Source of the DNA: Lachnospiraceae bacterium
Lineage (GTDB): Bacteria > Bacillota > Clostridia > Lachnospirales > Lachnospiraceae
Direction: 5' to 3'
NCBI GenBank assembly: GCA_014804785.1
Contig: JAAUZD010000026.1
Location: 1 to 51,114 of the forward strand
Length of the DNA stretch: 51,114 nucleotides
Under the pieces are notes generated by a model, which did no database searches, had not been told where the DNA came from, and worked only from the letters and a program-made list of their open reading frames with translations. Shown here one piece after another: positions 2,127 through 49,397 of this stretch (position 1 is its first letter; each line of letters begins with the position of its first letter). A program made the position numbers and the translations under genes.

Positions 2127-2678
2127 TCAATCTTCTTTATATTTTTCAATTGCTGTTTCATATAGATTATTTCCCTCAGAATCAATCACAACGATAACCG
2201 GAAAATCTTTTACCTGAAGCTTGCGTATTGCTTCTGTTCCTAAATCATCATATGCAATTACCTCAGAACTTATAATAGATTTTGAAAGCAATGCACCGGC
2301 ACCGCCTACCGCGGCAAAGTACACTGCACCATTGCGGATAATCGCCTGCCTTACTGAATCGCTTCTCTTTCCTTTTCCAATCATCCCTTTTAATCCCAAG
2401 TCCAAAAGAGAAGGTGCATATTTATCCATCCTGCTGGCAGTTGTGGGGCCTGCTGATCCAATGGGACGTCCTTCTCTTGCCGGGGACGGACCCATATAAT
2501 AAATGACATTATGATTTATATCAATAGGAAGGGCTTCGCCCCGCTCTAAAGCTTCATACATTCTTTTATGTGCAGCATCCCTGGCTGTATAGATTGTTCC
2601 CGTTATGTATACATAATCGCCGCTGTGCAATTCTTTTGCTGTTTTATCATCATAAGGTGCAGTAATATATCTATCCAT
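2127..2678 (-). CDS. class I fumarate hydratase, beta (C-terminal) subunit
   Basis: This 183-residue protein matches the C-terminal subunit of two-subunit class I fumarases and tartrate dehydratases, which with the alpha subunit interconverts fumarate and malate. Recognisable blocks include the N-terminal SGDYVYITGTIYTARDAAHKR, MGPSPAREGRPIGSAGPTT, which lines the active site, and AVGGAGALLSKSI. Length is normal for the separate subunit. The start ATG at 2678 has GAGGG 7 nt upstream. It follows the alpha subunit gene after 23 nt, so the two are co-transcribed. L(+)-tartrate dehydratase is the alternative, but the fumarase call is more usual in clostridia. Confidence 0.9.
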   Translation of the reverse strand: MDRYITAPYDDKTAKELHSGDYVYITGTIYTARDAAHKRMYEALERGEALPIDINHNVIYYMGPSPAREGRPIGSAGPTTASRMDKYAPSLLDLGLKGMIGKGKRSDSVRQAIIRNGAVYFAAVGGAGALLSKSIISSEVIAYDDLGTEAIRKLQVKDFPVIVVIDSEGNNLYETAIEKYKED

Positions 2679-44033: not shown

Positions 44034-44807
44034 TTACATGTTGGCATAGTCAAGGAACAGATAACGCGTCTTATTTTCATTTTCTATATATTCATTTGTA
44101 TGCTTCTCCCCCACATAAACCAATTCTCCATTTCGATATGCAAGCAAGGTATTTATAGGCACATTTTCCCAACAATTCTGTTTCAATGGTTTAGTAGAAA
44201 TAAAAAGCGTTTTCCCTTTTTGACATCTATGAAGACTGTTCTTATGATTTGCGTGGACATAAAATAAATCACCGTCATAAATTAAAAGATTTACTTTATT
44301 TTCCGGTGTAATCGTATGAATAACTTTATCGACAATTAAAAATCTCTCTTCATCTGTGAGTTCTCTCCCTGTTTTCTTCTGTTCTGCATTAATCTGATCC
44401 ACCAGATAATACAGAATCCTTTCGCTGTCTGACTGCCCTTTTTGCCTGGAAAGATAGGGGTCCAACTCACTACTTTCAAAAATCGTACCATTATGCGCCA
44501 GTGTCCATGCACGGTCAGCATCATCTCTTAAAATAAAAGGATGGGAATTCTTATATTCAATTCCCCCTTTTGACGCCTTTCTAATATGTGCTATAAGCTT
44601 ATCTTTTACTATCTCTTCCGTCAGCCTGTTCTTAAGATATGTACTTTCAAGAGACGATACCGGTTCTTTTTCCAAAGAAACTGCATTTTCGTAAAAAGTC
44701 GCCAGACCCCATCCATGAGGATTGTCAATTCCATGTTCGAAAAACTCCTTAAGCATCTCATTACATTTTACTTTTTCCCTACTGCTTATACCAAATAATT
44801 CACACAT
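44034..44807 (-). CDS. class II glutamine amidotransferase (YafJ/EgtC/Dug3-like)
   Basis: This 257-residue N-terminal-nucleophile amidohydrolase begins MCELFGISS. Cys2 would be the nucleophile after Met removal, which fixes the start at 44807 although the open frame extends to 44930. Further family motifs: NPHGWGLATFYE, IAHIRKASKGGIEYKNSHPF, WTLAHNGTI. The family includes EgtC (removes glutamate from a gamma-glutamyl thiol) and yeast Dug3 (glutathione breakdown). No synthetase partner domain is present, so it is a free amidase. It lies 22 nt after the ABC ATPase gene and is the last gene of the cysteine-attenuated operon. Confidence 0.83.
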   Translation of the reverse strand: MCELFGISSREKVKCNEMLKEFFEHGIDNPHGWGLATFYENAVSLEKEPVSSLESTYLKNRLTEEIVKDKLIAHIRKASKGGIEYKNSHPFILRDDADRAWTLAHNGTIFESSELDPYLSRQKGQSDSERILYYLVDQINAEQKKTGRELTDEERFLIVDKVIHTITPENKVNLLIYDGDLFYVHANHKNSLHRCQKGKTLFISTKPLKQNCWENVPINTLLAYRNGELVYVGEKHTNEYIENENKTRYLFLDYANM

Positions 44808-44829
44808 CTGTCTATCCATCCATTCACAA

Positions 44830-45579
44830 TTAATGCTGTTTAATTGAATTAAGGAATTCCTGCGCACGCTGGGTCTTAGGGTGTGCAAAGAATTCTTCCG
44901 GCACATTTTCCTCAATGATACTGCCGTCATCCATAAAAATAATTCTATCTGCTACCTGTCTGGCAAAATTCATTTCATGCGTAACAATCACCATCGTCAT
45001 ACCTTCCTTGGCAAGTCCCGTTATGACATCTAAAACTTCACCGATCATTTCCGGATCCAATGCACTTGTAGGTTCATCAAACAAAATCGCTTTCGGATGC
45101 ATTGCCAATGCGCGCGCAATAGCAACACGCTGCTGCTGCCCTCCGGAAAGTTGTGCAGGTACTTTAGAAGCCTGGCTGTCCACGCCGACTCTTTTTAAAA
45201 GTGCCATTGCTTCTTCCTGCGCTTCCTTTCGGGACTTACGAAGCACATCAATTGGACCAATAGTGACATTGTCAAGAATGTTTTTGTGGGCAAAAAGATT
45301 AAATGATTGAAACACCATTCCCACCTGTGAACGAATTTCGGCAAGTTTTCTTCCCTCCTTTGGCATAGCCACTCCATCAATAATGATTTCACCTGAATCA
45401 ATGGTTTCCAGCCGATTAATCGTGCGGCAGAATGTAGACTTTCCGGAACCTGAGGGTCCAATGATGACTACCACTTCTCCCTTTTTCACAGAAAGATTTA
45501 TATCTTTTAGCACATGCAATGATCCAAAATATTTATCAACATGCCTCGCTTCAATGACCGGATTCTGCTCCTGTAACAT
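44830..45579 (-). CDS. polar amino acid ABC transporter, ATP-binding protein
   Basis: This 249-residue ATPase has Walker [19 protein letters not shown]-loop [18 protein letters not shown], signature [16 protein letters not shown], Walker [15 protein letters not shown] and H-loop [14 protein letters not shown]. All are typical of the GlnQ/GluA/TcyC polar amino acid group. GGAGC lies upstream of the ATG. It follows the second permease gene after 24 nt. Substrate is not defined by the ATPase; the Cys-rich leader points to cystine or a cysteine compound. Confidence 0.93.
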
Positions 45580-45603: not shown

Positions 45604-46434
45604 CTATTGTATTAACATAGCGGAAATATTCTTACGTCTGGCAATTACAACAGATACTTTATTCAAAATATAATTTATAACAATGTAAATCACGGCTACT
45701 ACCAAATACACAGAAAGAAGCGCATCGTGGTTACTGATCAGAACACGGGCGTTCTGCATCAAGTCTGCATAATTGACAACATAAGCAAACGTAGTATCTT
45801 TTAATACGATAACCAGTTCTGATATCAGTGCCGGAATTACATAGCGGAACGCCTGCGGAAATACTATCTTAAAAAATGTACTGTTTCCTGACATGCCCAA
45901 AGAAAGAGCTGCCTCCGTCTGCCCTTTGGGAACTGCGTTTACTCCAGAGCGAAGCACTTCTGCAACCACACCCGAAGCAGAAATTGCCACAGGTATTGCT
46001 ATCTTCCAAAACGCTGGCAATTTCAACCCAAATTGTGGAGCAATGAGAAAGAAAAAATAAATAAAAAGCAGCGTAGGCACTCCTCGGCTAAATTCAATCA
46101 GTACCGTACTTATTCCTTGAACAATCCTGATGCCTCTGATTCTGCCTAGCATAAGCAGCAGACCTAAAACAAAAGCAATCAGACCCGCCATAAGCGCGAC
46201 TTTTAAGGTACCTGCCAATCCTCTACCTAAAAATCTCCAGGTAGCATATTTTACAAAAAAATCCCAATATTTCGAGTCTAGCTGTCCGGTGATATAAAAC
46301 TGTCTGACAACGGCGAATGACAACGCTGCCAAAATAACTAACGAAATTATCGTAGCTGTTACGATACGCTTACGTGCCTTAGGTCCAGGTTCCTCATAGA
46401 GCATATCTCTTATGGAAGTATTTACAGTACTCAT
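45604..46434 (-). CDS. polar amino acid ABC transporter permease (second)
   Basis: This 276-residue permease of the His/Glu/Gln/Arg/opine family has a longer N-terminus with a membrane helix (IVTATIISLVILAALSFAVV), five core helices and the EAA-like coupling loop QTEAALSLGMSGNSTFFKIVFPQAFRYVIPAL. It overlaps the first permease stop by 4 bp (ATGA). The pair of different permeases plus separate ATPase and binding protein matches the gluABCD-type layout. Confidence 0.92.
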   Translation of the reverse strand: MSTVNTSIRDMLYEEPGPKARKRIVTATIISLVILAALSFAVVRQFYITGQLDSKYWDFFVKYATWRFLGRGLAGTLKVALMAGLIAFVLGLLLMLGRIRGIRIVQGISTVLIEFSRGVPTLLFIYFFFLIAPQFGLKLPAFWKIAIPVAISASGVVAEVLRSGVNAVPKGQTEAALSLGMSGNSTFFKIVFPQAFRYVIPALISELVIVLKDTTFAYVVNYADLMQNARVLISNHDALLSVYLVVAVIYIVINYILNKVSVVIARRKNISAMLIQ

Positions 46435-47090
46435 CGCAGTATCCTCACTTTCCGGTCAATCAGATTACCCAGCTGTCCGATCACTACAGCCGTTCCACAG
46501 TATAAAAGTGCAGAAATCAGAAAGGCTGTAACACCGCCCACCGCACGTGTATTAACATACGAGACAATACCGGTCAAGTCTGTTGGATTCATTGGCACCT
46601 GTGATGCCAATGCCGTTGTAAGCATGGTTGCAACCAACAGATTCGTCATCGGCAGTATGCTGGAGCGCAATGCCTGCGGAAGCACGACATTTTTAATCAT
46701 TTTAAAAAAAGTCATTCCAAGAGAACGTGCTGCTTCAATCTGTCCAACATCTATGGTGTTCATCCCAGCCATAAGATACTCAGAGCAAAATGCAGATGGA
46801 AGCAATGATGTTGCAATTAGAACACAAACATAATAGGACCAAACCAAATTAAGATATGGCAATGCATAGACAAGAACAATAAGAAGTGCAGCACCGGGAA
46901 TGTTTCTGAATATCTGCACATAAAAATCGCCTGCAAACCTCAGCGGTTTAACCGGACATATCCGCATGATAGTAACAGCAATACCGATGACAAATGCAAA
47001 TGCAAAAGCTAATGCAGTGAGCTTCCATGTTGTCAGAAGCGCCAGAATATATTTATCTCCATATTGAGTCAGAAGCTCATAGACATTCAT
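46431..47090 (-). CDS. polar amino acid ABC transporter permease (first)
   Basis: This 219-residue permease has five hydrophobic segments and the coupling loop QIEAARSLGMTFFKMIKNVVLPQALRSSILPM (EAA-type, in order). The start ATG at 47090 has GGAGG 7 nt upstream, immediately after the T-run of the intercistronic hairpin. It forms the heterodimeric channel with the second permease. Confidence 0.92.
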   Translation of the reverse strand: MNVYELLTQYGDKYILALLTTWKLTALAFAFAFVIGIAVTIMRICPVKPLRFAGDFYVQIFRNIPGAALLIVLVYALPYLNLVWSYYVCVLIATSLLPSAFCSEYLMAGMNTIDVGQIEAARSLGMTFFKMIKNVVLPQALRSSILPMTNLLVATMLTTALASQVPMNPTDLTGIVSYVNTRAVGGVTAFLISALLYCGTAVVIGQLGNLIDRKVRILR

Positions 47091-47161: not shown

Positions 47162-48214
47162 CTATTTTTCTATTACCGGAGCCTTTGGTGCATCTTCAAT
47201 ACCGGTACGGTCTCCAAGACTAATCTTCCAAAGCTGTTCCCATGTACCATTTTCCTCTATCTTCTGCAGGAATTCATTTACAAATGCCACTCCGTCAGAG
47301 TCAAGTGGAAGACCGATTCCATAATTATCCTCAGGTCCAAATACATCGCCCGCAATTTCATATTTATCTGGATTTTTCACAATCGCATTTAAGAGTAATG
47401 TATAATCGGTAACATACGCATCCACGCGGCCCTGCTCCAATGCAGTCCGTGCTTCAATATCATTTGCAAATTCCTGAACAATAGCGTCAGGTGCATACTC
47501 TGCCAATATCTCCGGTCCAGTAGAACCTGACTGTGTTGCAACATTTTTGCCTGCCAGACTTTCAATGCCTGTAATTTCTGTATTTCCTTCCTTCACAAGA
47601 ACTGCCTGTTTGGAAGTATAATACGGACCTGCGAAGGAAATAACCTCCTGACGAGAAGGTGTGATGGAATAAGTAGCGAATACTGCATCCACCTGCCCGC
47701 TCTGCAGAACAGATTCACGTGTACTTGAATCAACCTGGGTCAGATCAAACTTTGTCTCATCCCCTAGAATATAACGTGCAAGCAACTGATAAAGACCTGC
47801 ATCAAATCCGCGGAGAGCGTCATCCGTTTCGTCAAGCTGACTGAACAGGAAAGAAGTACGTGTACCGCCAACTCTTAAAACACCTGCTTCCTTAATAGCT
47901 GCAGCCCAGCTGTTTGCTTCAATATCAGCATCATCAGCTACAATACCGGATGCGATAAGACTATCAAATGCCTCCTTATCAATGGCAACTGCCACCGGCT
48001 CTTCTGCCTCCTCTGCTTCTGCGGAAATATCTTCTGTAGCTTCTGTACCTTCCGTCTCTTCTGACGTCTCAACATCCTCAGTAGTTATTTCCTCCGCCGG
48101 TTCTGCAGAAGACGGAACTGATGATTCGCTGTTGCCGCACGCTGCCAACCCCAATACAAAAGTCAAAATCAATAAAATGCCTAATGTTTTTTTAATTCCT
48201 TTAATTTTTTTCAT
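47162..48214 (-). CDS. polar amino acid ABC transporter substrate-binding lipoprotein
   Basis: This 350-residue protein has a lipoprotein signal (KKTLGILLILTFVLGLAACGN, LAAC lipobox), a linker of about 50 residues rich in Ser, Thr and Glu, then a type II periplasmic-binding domain of the amino-acid family (GFDAGLYQLLARYILG, VDAVFATYSITPSRQEVISFAGPYY, LAGKNVATQSGST, GRVDAYVTDYTLLL, GIGLPLDSDGVAFVN in order). The start at 48214 has AAAGGAG 9 nt upstream. It is the first structural gene after the leader. Ligand cannot be read from motifs; cystine or a gamma-glutamyl thiol is inferred from regulation and context. Confidence 0.9.
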   Translation of the reverse strand: MKKIKGIKKTLGILLILTFVLGLAACGNSESSVPSSAEPAEEITTEDVETSEETEGTEATEDISAEAEEAEEPVAVAIDKEAFDSLIASGIVADDADIEANSWAAAIKEAGVLRVGGTRTSFLFSQLDETDDALRGFDAGLYQLLARYILGDETKFDLTQVDSSTRESVLQSGQVDAVFATYSITPSRQEVISFAGPYYTSKQAVLVKEGNTEITGIESLAGKNVATQSGSTGPEILAEYAPDAIVQEFANDIEARTALEQGRVDAYVTDYTLLLNAIVKNPDKYEIAGDVFGPEDNYGIGLPLDSDGVAFVNEFLQKIEENGTWEQLWKISLGDRTGIEDAPKAPVIEK

Positions 48215-48299: not shown

Positions 48300-48327
48300 A
48301 AAAAATGGAAGCTTGTAACCAGCCTCC
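48300..48327 (-). terminator. attenuator terminator before the amino acid ABC operon
   Basis: On the minus strand GGAGGCT-GGTTACA-AGCTTCC (7-bp stem with one G-U) is followed by ATTTTTT. It lies 85 nt before the binding-protein start and 31 nt after the Cys-rich ORF. Its 5' arm overlaps CCGGGAGG (48330-48323), which pairs with TCTCCCGG (48426-48419) inside the ORF (8 bp, one G-U). The two folds exclude each other. Confidence 0.78.
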
Positions 48328-48358
48328 CGGACAGATGACATTATAGTACACTCTTTCA

Positions 48359-48484
48359 TCAAGTGTAATATACAGGCGCACAGCAATGCGAATACAGGCA
48401 CCTGGTCATACAATATGCCCGGGAGATAAGCATTCGACAACAACACTTGATACAATTTATTATCATGATGTTACGGATATTCAT
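48359..48484 (-). CDS. Cys-rich leader peptide (candidate cysteine attenuator)
   Basis: A 41-codon ORF begins at ATG 48484 with AAAGGAGG 8 nt upstream and ends at TGA 48359. It encodes eight cysteines, four of them clustered in NCIKCCCRM (codons 11-16, all TGT). The second half contains further Cys (YCMTRCLYSHCC). The antiterminator arm TCTCCCGG starts 11 nt after the last codon of the Cys run. A ribosome paused there for lack of Cys-tRNA would leave the arm free. No homologue is recognised, so this is probably a regulatory leader, not a functional protein. Confidence 0.7.
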   Translation of the reverse strand: MNIRNIMIINCIKCCCRMLISRAYCMTRCLYSHCCAPVYYT

Positions 48485-48530
48485 TGCATTCGCCTCCTTT
48501 TTAATCATCTTGCTCAAATCCGATAGGCAT

Positions 48531-48559
48531 ATCATATAACTCAAATCATACTATTTCAA
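48531..48559 (-). promoter_or_regulatory. promoter of the cysteine-attenuated ABC operon
   Basis: On the minus strand TTGAAA (48559-48554), a 17-nt spacer and TATGAT (48536-48531). RNA start near 48524 would place the leader ORF 40 nt downstream. A second -10-like TATAAT at 48345-48340 has only a weak ATTACA 18 nt upstream. Between 48560 and 48635 there is AT-rich DNA with an orphan AAAGGAGGAGG site without a following start codon. Confidence 0.7.
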
Positions 48560-48635
48560 TAGGAATTATGTACTATAAATTATAAATTTTCCTCCTCCTT
48601 TCACCTAAAATACCTACTTAAGCTTCACAAAAATT

Positions 48636-49397
48636 TTACCATCCCAGTTCTAATAGCCAGTTATTTAATAATCTCTCCCTATCCTTCTCTTTTATCTCTA
48701 AATCTTTAGGACTTATATACTCGCCCTTAATGTTACCATCTACAATATACAACACTCTGGAACACTTTGCGGCTACCTTTGCATCATGGGTTACCATCAT
48801 GATCGTTGTTCCTTCTTCGTTTAGCTTTACCAGTTCCTCCATTACCTCATTTGACGCAGTTCTGTTCAAAGCTCCCGTAGGTTCATCCGCAAATAAAACC
48901 CTGGGCATATTAATCATACTTCTACAAATACAGGCTCTCTGAAGCTGCCCTCCCGAAACTTCATTGATGTCGTTGTCGGCAATGTCAATAATACCCAGCT
49001 TACGCATTAAGTCCTGTCCACGCTGGACCGTCTCCTTACGTGTTTCGGTATTCTTATCAGACTGTACCGCAGGAAGAATAACATTATCGAGAACGGTCAG
49101 ATTTTTAAGCATATACATCTGCTGAAAGATAAATCCCATTTCATCAAGGCGTAAATCTGCAAGCTCCTTTTCACCCATTTTTGCAATATTCTTTCCACAG
49201 AATTTTGCTTCGCCTGCGGTAATGGAATCCATGCCCGAAACAGCATACAGGAGAGTTGATTTACCCGAGCCTGACGGACCCATAACAGCTACCATTTCAC
49301 CTTCAGAAACGGTAAAGTTTACATTTTTCAAAACGTTGTTCTGACGTTTGTTTACGATATATGTTTTGCAGAGGTCTTTTACTTCTAAAATATTCAT
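48636..49397 (-). CDS. ABC transporter ATP-binding protein, LolD/MacB type
   Basis: This 253-residue ATPase has Walker [20 protein letters not shown]-loop FIFQQMYMLKNLTVLDNV, signature EVSGGQLQRACICRSM, Walker B VLFADEPTGALNRTAS and H-loop VTHDAKVAA. The ADEPTGALN form is typical of MacB/LolD/BceA-type mechanotransmission ABC systems, which export peptides or sense antimicrobials. It follows the FtsX permease gene after 14 nt. No two-component system is seen in the window. Confidence 0.92.
   Translation of the reverse strand: MNILEVKDLCKTYIVNKRQNNVLKNVNFTVSEGEMVAVMGPSGSGKSTLLYAVSGMDSITAGEAKFCGKNIAKMGEKELADLRLDEMGFIFQQMYMLKNLTVLDNVILPAVQSDKNTETRKETVQRGQDLMRKLGIIDIADNDINEVSGGQLQRACICRSMINMPRVLFADEPTGALNRTASNEVMEELVKLNEEGTTIMMVTHDAKVAAKCSRVLYIVDGNIKGEYISPKDLEIKEKDRERLLNNWLLELGW

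Follow-up and report, generated by a model that had tools for sequence, protein, structure and literature searches.

The window, meaning the whole 51,114-nucleotide stretch of Lachnospiraceae DNA that was analysed, encodes on its minus strand an amino acid ABC transporter whose predicted first regulated gene specifies a family 3 substrate-binding protein (SBP_bac_3, hereafter SBP; 47162-48214). Downstream of it on the same strand lie genes for two ABC permeases (46431-47090 and 45604-46434), an ABC ATPase of the polar amino acid type (44830-45579) and a class II glutamine amidotransferase-like protein (44034-44930), the last of which probably closes the operon. Because its frame overlaps the ATPase gene by 101 nt, the true start of the amidotransferase-like gene is probably internal; its product shows a weak likeness to EgtC that falls under the NCBIfam cut-offs. 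At the start of the window, a truncated 16S rRNA gene (1-621) and a tRNA gene (1124-1211) are found, also on the minus strand.

The leader, whose parts all lie on the minus strand, is contained in the 421 nt that separate the SBP gene from an unrelated gene for an ABC ATPase (48636-49397). Its sigma-70-type promoter-like site, TTGAAA-N17-TATGAT (48531-48559), matches the consensus at 10 of 12 positions, with six sites of such quality counted in a 901-base region against 3.0 expected. The leader peptide ORF, MNIRNIMIINCIKCCCRMLISRAYCMTRCLYSHCCAPVYYT (48359-48484), follows the Shine-Dalgarno (SD) motif AAAAGGAGGCG and comprises 41 codons, eight of them for Cys, with the presumed regulatory Cys codons 14-16 (48445-48437) followed directly by CGA ATG. 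It is the sole SD-led ORF of 15-60 codons with three consecutive Cys codons in the whole window, and no such ORF occurred in 40 first-order Markov windows. An intrinsic terminator, GGAGGCT-loop-AGCTTCC-A-T6, occupies 48300-48327, as judged from sequence and the fold model. The promoter, the 41-codon ORF with its strong ribosome-binding site and the terminator are thus present where the initial annotation had placed them. That annotation had further proposed an exclusive antiterminator pairing between TCTCCCGG (48426-48419) and CCGGGAGG (48330-48323). The two segments are complementary, their first pair being U-G, but the pairing does not stand alone and forms part of a longer, branched structure.

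In this branched antiterminator, the formation of which excludes the terminator, a 10-bp stem, P1, encloses P2, P3 and P4. The 5' arm of P1, CTCCCGGGCA (48416-48425), pairs with the 3' arm TGTCCGGGAG (48324-48333), which shares bases with the 5' arm of the terminator. P2 is formed by ATGAC (48405-48409) and GTCAT (48335-48339), and P3 is the hairpin CAGGTGC...GCGCCTG (48373-48404); like P1, both are indicated by folding and by covariation across related leaders. P4 (48342-48372), which contains the leader stop codon TGA (48361-48359), is indicated by folding, is variable across the leader family, and is absent from the covariance model R1 described below. The segment 48430-48321 folds at -42.8 kcal/mol, with a z-score of -4.94, a value as low being reached by none of 200 dinucleotide shuffles. 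P1 starts 14 nt downstream of the first base of the last Cys codon.

Relatives of the leader were sought by way of the SBP and by way of the leader sequence. Among 36 other genomes of the same genus, the best-scoring SBP match had 37% identity, some short or weaker matches being higher, and these same-genus matches were for that reason kept out of the alignment. In other organisms, mostly metagenome-assembled genomes labelled Lachnospiraceae, Clostridia, Clostridiales or Blautia, 40 loci with SBP orthologs of 68-88% identity were found, two of which (L037 and L045) carry the same leader, detected without any leader-based search. A pattern search with the DNA core common to the window, L037 and L045, TGTCGAATGYKTWYCTCCCGGGC, allowing up to three mismatches, was then run over 392 genomes of the order and matched 27 of them, against 9 for the reversed control pattern. 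Its 28 matches were judged to comprise 20 leaders and eight chance matches (L077, L086, L087, L090, L097 and L100-L102). The 20 leaders together with L037 and L045 formed the 22-sequence training set of model R1. Most of this set had been selected by pattern, which biases how conserved CGAATG and the P1 5' arm appear. The window leader, itself one of the training sequences, matches the model at 48324-48442, over the Cys codons and the whole antiterminator, with 82.2 bits.

Matches to R1, with the genome of the window (G000) counted at each level, were found in 46 of 397 genomes and 42 of 334 genera at the family level, in 15 of 391 genomes at the class level and in 5 of 378 genomes at the phylum level. 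Genomes with matches read as leaders number 44, 13 and 5, respectively, after removal of leader-less genomes at the family (G154 and G487) and class (G794 and G795) levels; G154 is also among the 15 at the class level, where 12 remain if it is removed there too. Of the 22 loci examined at the class and phylum levels, 20 were read as the same leader type, including some from other families and other classes, and two (L176 and L177) were dropped as lacking a proper leader. One of these wider leaders (L167) is cut short by a stop codon right after CCRMR. A chance arrangement in one genome would be in keeping with the eight of 28 pattern matches that are not leaders and with the control pattern matching in 9 of 392 genomes. 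It is nevertheless refuted by the comparative data, namely E-values as low as 7e-21 in genomes outside the training set, covariation and gene context, and its probability is negligible.

The initial annotation had looked to orthologous operons for conservation of the leader. At these loci the expectation mostly failed, as R1 matches occur at just 2 of the 40 SBP loci and are missing at 38, and the leader is instead conserved at other cysteine and methionine operons. Among the 38, L047 and L066, with 205 and 77 nt of sequence ahead of the gene, are too short to be judged fully. Given the 38 orthologous loci with no match, the leader at the operon of the window looks like a local acquisition, and since only two of the orthologous transporter loci carry it, the leader appears to move between operons.

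Other Cys-rich elements were seen upstream of the SBP orthologs. Five of the 40 have an SD-led, Cys-dense upstream ORF, against 0.20 expected by shuffling; one is the leader of L045 and four (L038, L050, L051 and L060) are of another type. Cys-rich short ORFs with no R1 match were noted at L049, L050, L053 and L060, such as MCMCRMCMCW in L050 and MCMCCCMC in L049, and these possibly represent a second, independent kind of cysteine leader. Small recurring elements were also seen by eye. At L062, L064 and L068 they comprise a GGCGAT-GTGATCGCC hairpin together with frames that read MCDRR or MRDRR (RRWMRC at L064 and L068), and at L049, L050 and L060 the frames read VCDRC or VCDRM.

Among the 78 R1 matches that were read, 75 have a usable leader ORF; the other three, L142, L158 and L162, lack a proper leader and do not enter the counts over 75 leaders. 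The consensus peptide is M(C)CRMxxSRA, in which SRA is the translated P1 5' arm. The Cys codons, whose conservation the initial annotation had named as a check, are conserved in relatives: the key codon (offset 0) encodes Cys in 66 of the 75 leaders, offset -1 in 54 and offset -2 in 27, while at each of the offsets from -14 to -7 at most one leader has Cys. An SD-like motif of at least four bases precedes the start codon in 73 of 75 leaders, a count to be read with the fact that starts were chosen for such a motif. A run of at least four T residues within 60 nt past P1 was found in 74 of 78 rows. Two leaders ahead of sulfhydrylase genes (L151 and L153) have RCGRM in place of CCRM, the key Cys having moved by one codon. 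L037 contains a second, divergent leader (2136-2242, minus strand; 28.6 bits) ahead of an O-acetylhomoserine sulfhydrylase gene, in which Gly replaces the key Cys.

The compensatory changes in the antiterminator that the initial annotation had proposed to look for were found in two alignments. RNAalifold on the MAFFT alignment detected only P1; P2 and P3 were assigned manually, from individual folds of sequences in the same set, before their pairs were counted. In the alignment of the 22 leaders, standard pairs occupy 89.6% of cells, against 85.7% in shuffles and 31.6-53.1% with slid partners, and both-side changes occur in 10 of 21 pairs, against a shuffle mean of 4.6, the observed number being reached in 1 of 500 shuffles. 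In the alignment of 82 matches, the corresponding figures are 90.7% against 82.3% and 29-55%, with both-side changes in 16 of 21 pairs, against 12.5 in shuffles, 6 of 500 of which reach as many, and 138 both-side cells against 35. The two alignments agree, the unfitted 22-leader alignment being the fairer test, as the structure had guided the 82-match one, which also includes four matches in antisense orientation (L105+, L107-, L094- and L116+) that were left out of the 78 read. By way of example, P2 is ATGAC/GTCAT in the window and ATGGC/GCCAT in several relatives, and P1 of L096 and of L091 has one A-U pair where most leaders have G-C.

Ribosome positions were compared in a fold model. For the window, a ribosome at C14, C15 or C16 yields the antiterminator, and one at the stop codon yields the terminator. 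Across 73 leaders (the 75 less two short matches, L139 of 56 nt and L141 of 65 nt), a ribosome stalled at the Cys codon gives an antiterminator probability above 0.5 in 58, with the terminator still favoured in 11. Without a ribosome, the antiterminator remains the preferred fold of 46 of the 73 leaders, including that of the window, so that termination seems to need a ribosome running through the leader; for the window this outcome depends on the 5' end used, since a longer transcript folded into the terminator instead. In 71 of 75 leaders, the distance from the stop codon to the end of the P1 3' arm is 17-60 nt (median 39), which places the stop mostly within the branched part, a position that fits termination by a run-through ribosome. 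For an anti-antiterminator (1:2) hairpin, formed by CGAATG with the P3 region, the modelled signal is weak: the mean duplex z-score is -0.94, with 31 of 73 leaders below -1, and masking CGAATG changes the number of terminator-favouring leaders from 24 to 19 of 73. Another candidate partner of CGAATG, the CATTTG in the 3' arm, was dropped, as by eye the pairing showed no covariation.

A structure that is branched and covarying, and thus more elaborate than a plain hairpin, might instead suggest a metabolite-binding riboswitch, in which P1-P4 would bind a sulfur compound, with no role for the ORF. Such a reading is very unlikely: an ORF with Cys codons stands at a fixed distance in 75 of the 78 matches read, the sequences of P2, P3 and the junction are variable, with no obvious conserved ligand core, and Rfam scans of the window and of eight leader loci gave no match over the leader. 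In release 15, the scan of the window gave no match over the leader at the gathering threshold and no T-box, and scans of eight leader loci with E-values up to 1 gave seven matches, none of them over a leader. A sub-threshold T-box in L037 (131-376) lies away from the leader. For the window and these eight loci, a T-box or other Rfam family was therefore rejected, and the leader adds a structured RNA that has no match in this release in the scans made.

The genes downstream of the 75 leaders were grouped by BLAST clusters and the clusters named against NCBIfam and Pfam, from one representative each, or three for the largest cluster, two of which are N-terminal pieces. Pyridoxal phosphate (PLP) enzymes of the O-acetylhomoserine sulfhydrylase and cystathionine group follow 42 of the leaders, SBP or MetQ-type lipoproteins follow 14, and glutathione S-transferase-like proteins follow four. 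Further clusters comprise three SBPs like that of the window, three MetN proteins and two permeases, and seven singletons include cysK, one further SBP and a LysR regulator. In total, genes for amino acid or methionine ABC transporters lie downstream of 23 leaders. cysS was not among the named downstream clusters of the 75 leaders, some singletons being without a name. At L164, where the leader scores 97.8 bits, the next long ORF begins like a glutamate-cysteine ligase; the 60 residues tested gave no Pfam match.

This gene context bears on whether the ribosome might stall for a cause other than uncharged tRNA-Cys, such as a pause or arrest at Cys-Arg(CGA)-Met, a thiol or redox signal, or general translation stress. 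Conservation at the level of codons would favour such a cause, as 68 of 75 leaders use CGA for the Arg and 73 have ATG at the next position. Part of this conservation, however, reflects search selection, since the training pattern contained CGAATG, and another possible source of it is a competing pairing between CGAATG and the P3 region. With downstream genes mostly of sulfur amino acid metabolism and extra Cys codons ahead of the key one, stalling for another cause appears improbable, though less so than a riboswitch.

In addition to the leader, an operator-like palindrome, CCTATTGAAATAGTATG (48547-48563, minus strand), overlaps the -35 element in the window and presumably resembles CymR sites. 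The consensus CCTAYTGACANN(N)TAGG, with up to three mismatches and within 140 nt upstream, was found at 61 of 75 leaders (one with the reversed-motif control) and upstream of 21 of the 40 SBP orthologs (control, one). The genome of the window holds a second copy of the leader (G000:C47:29019-29134, plus strand; L146:420-535), upstream of a MetN-like ATPase gene. An Rrf2-family gene (G000:C47:28428-28820) is directly divergent from it, and between the two a perfect palindrome, TTTACCTA-N9-TAGGTAAA, lies over the -35 element. We infer that the operator-like site is bound by an Rrf2 or CymR-like regulator. Control solely by such a promoter operator, with the leader acting as a constitutive partial terminator, would draw on the frequency of the site, also at orthologs most of which have no such leader. 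Yet this reading leaves the conserved Cys codons, the antiterminator covariation and the distance from Cys to P1 unexplained, and it is even less probable than a riboswitch.

On covariation and gene context, the leader is judged to be real, conserved and functional. The attenuator reading of the initial annotation is strengthened by the conserved Cys codons, the compensatory antiterminator changes, the terminator and the sulfur amino acid genes found in many genera, and the leader is most probably, with a probability of roughly 0.88, a ribosome-mediated transcription attenuator sensing charged tRNA-Cys. Under cysteine shortage, the ribosome would stall on the Cys codons immediately ahead of CGA ATG. 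P1 would then be free to form, as the first base of the last Cys codon is about one ribosome reach upstream, and P1 with the branched P2-P3(-P4) antiterminator would let RNA polymerase enter the transporter operon. With ample cysteine, the ribosome would cross the P1 5' arm toward the stop codon in the branched region; the antiterminator would stay open and the P1 3' arm would fold into the terminator. Initiation is probably controlled as well, by a cysteine regulator of the Rrf2 family (CymR-like) acting at the palindrome over the -35 element. The parts, their conservation, the covariation and the gene context are observed in the genomes, and from them we infer the response of read-through to cysteine, its kinetics and the identity of the regulator.

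In a wider and rather speculative reading, which we consider doubtful, the CRM leader would be a mobile class of cysteine attenuator, a module that brings its own operator and has spread among the cysteine and methionine operons of Bacillota, and in which the invariant Cys-CGA-ATG core sets a programmed pause or joins the RNA switch, thereby adding a timing step to the reading of cysteine charge. Several clostridia were reported, in the passages of a Clostridium perfringens study that deal with them, to have no cysteine T-boxes at their cysteine genes, such that other control may exist (PMC2940859), and the leader is a concrete candidate for such control in the family of the window and its relatives. 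Model R1 can also help to place unknown transporters and enzymes, those of the window included, in a cysteine regulon. An earlier description of a CRM-type leader was not found in the open-licence literature.

Ribosome-mediated transcription attenuation is the established mode of control of the trp and his operons in enterobacteria. In Firmicutes, attenuation by leader peptides is likewise not new, at least by the relevant parts of two reports: the Rli60 leader of ilv in Listeria is a branched-chain amino acid attenuator under dual control with CodY (PMC5864092), and His leader-peptide attenuation is found in bacilli, as at hisS of Bacillus (PMC2965389). As in trp, his and Listeria ilv, the present leader has an ORF with regulatory codons and an antiterminator overlapping a terminator, and the position of the ribosome would decide between them; Listeria ilv also, from the portion of the report concerned, pairs attenuation with a DNA-binding regulator, CodY (PMC5864092). 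It differs from these systems in the sensing of Cys, in a covarying branched antiterminator, in a 1:2 hairpin that is not clearly supported, and in that one related leader recurs at many different operons.

Closer in the amino acid sensed is uORFC-8-2, proposed as a Cys-codon attenuator with a terminator before cysS in Rhodobacterales (PMC8632094). The sections of that paper describing it give tandem Cys codons (at about codons 14-15 of the uORF), an intrinsic terminator and a proposed ribosome-mediated attenuation, all of which recall the present leader, and place it in Alphaproteobacteria, at cysS only, with the Cys codons inside the first stem (PMC8632094). Compared with uORFC-8-2 by this description, the leader reported here differs in having its Cys codons 5' of P1 and a CRMxxSRA peptide motif. 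Cys leader peptides of mycobacteria and other Actinobacteria are similarly short ORFs with Cys runs ahead of cysteine genes, and the pertinent passages of one report describe them as having no conserved terminator hairpins, other attenuator elements being missing too (PMC1262725); a title, Canestrari 2020, calls Cys leader peptides leaderless (reference in PMC9094748). Unlike the mycobacterial poly-Cys sORFs, an SD-like motif and a terminator are present here. The T-box reads tRNA directly, without a leader peptide. The cysteine T-box of Clostridium, according to the part of the report that treats it, resembles the present leader in that similar genes are controlled and a short cysteine supply prevents premature termination (PMC2940859). 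With no T-box match on the window leader, the leader described here differs from the cysteine T-box in having a peptide ORF.
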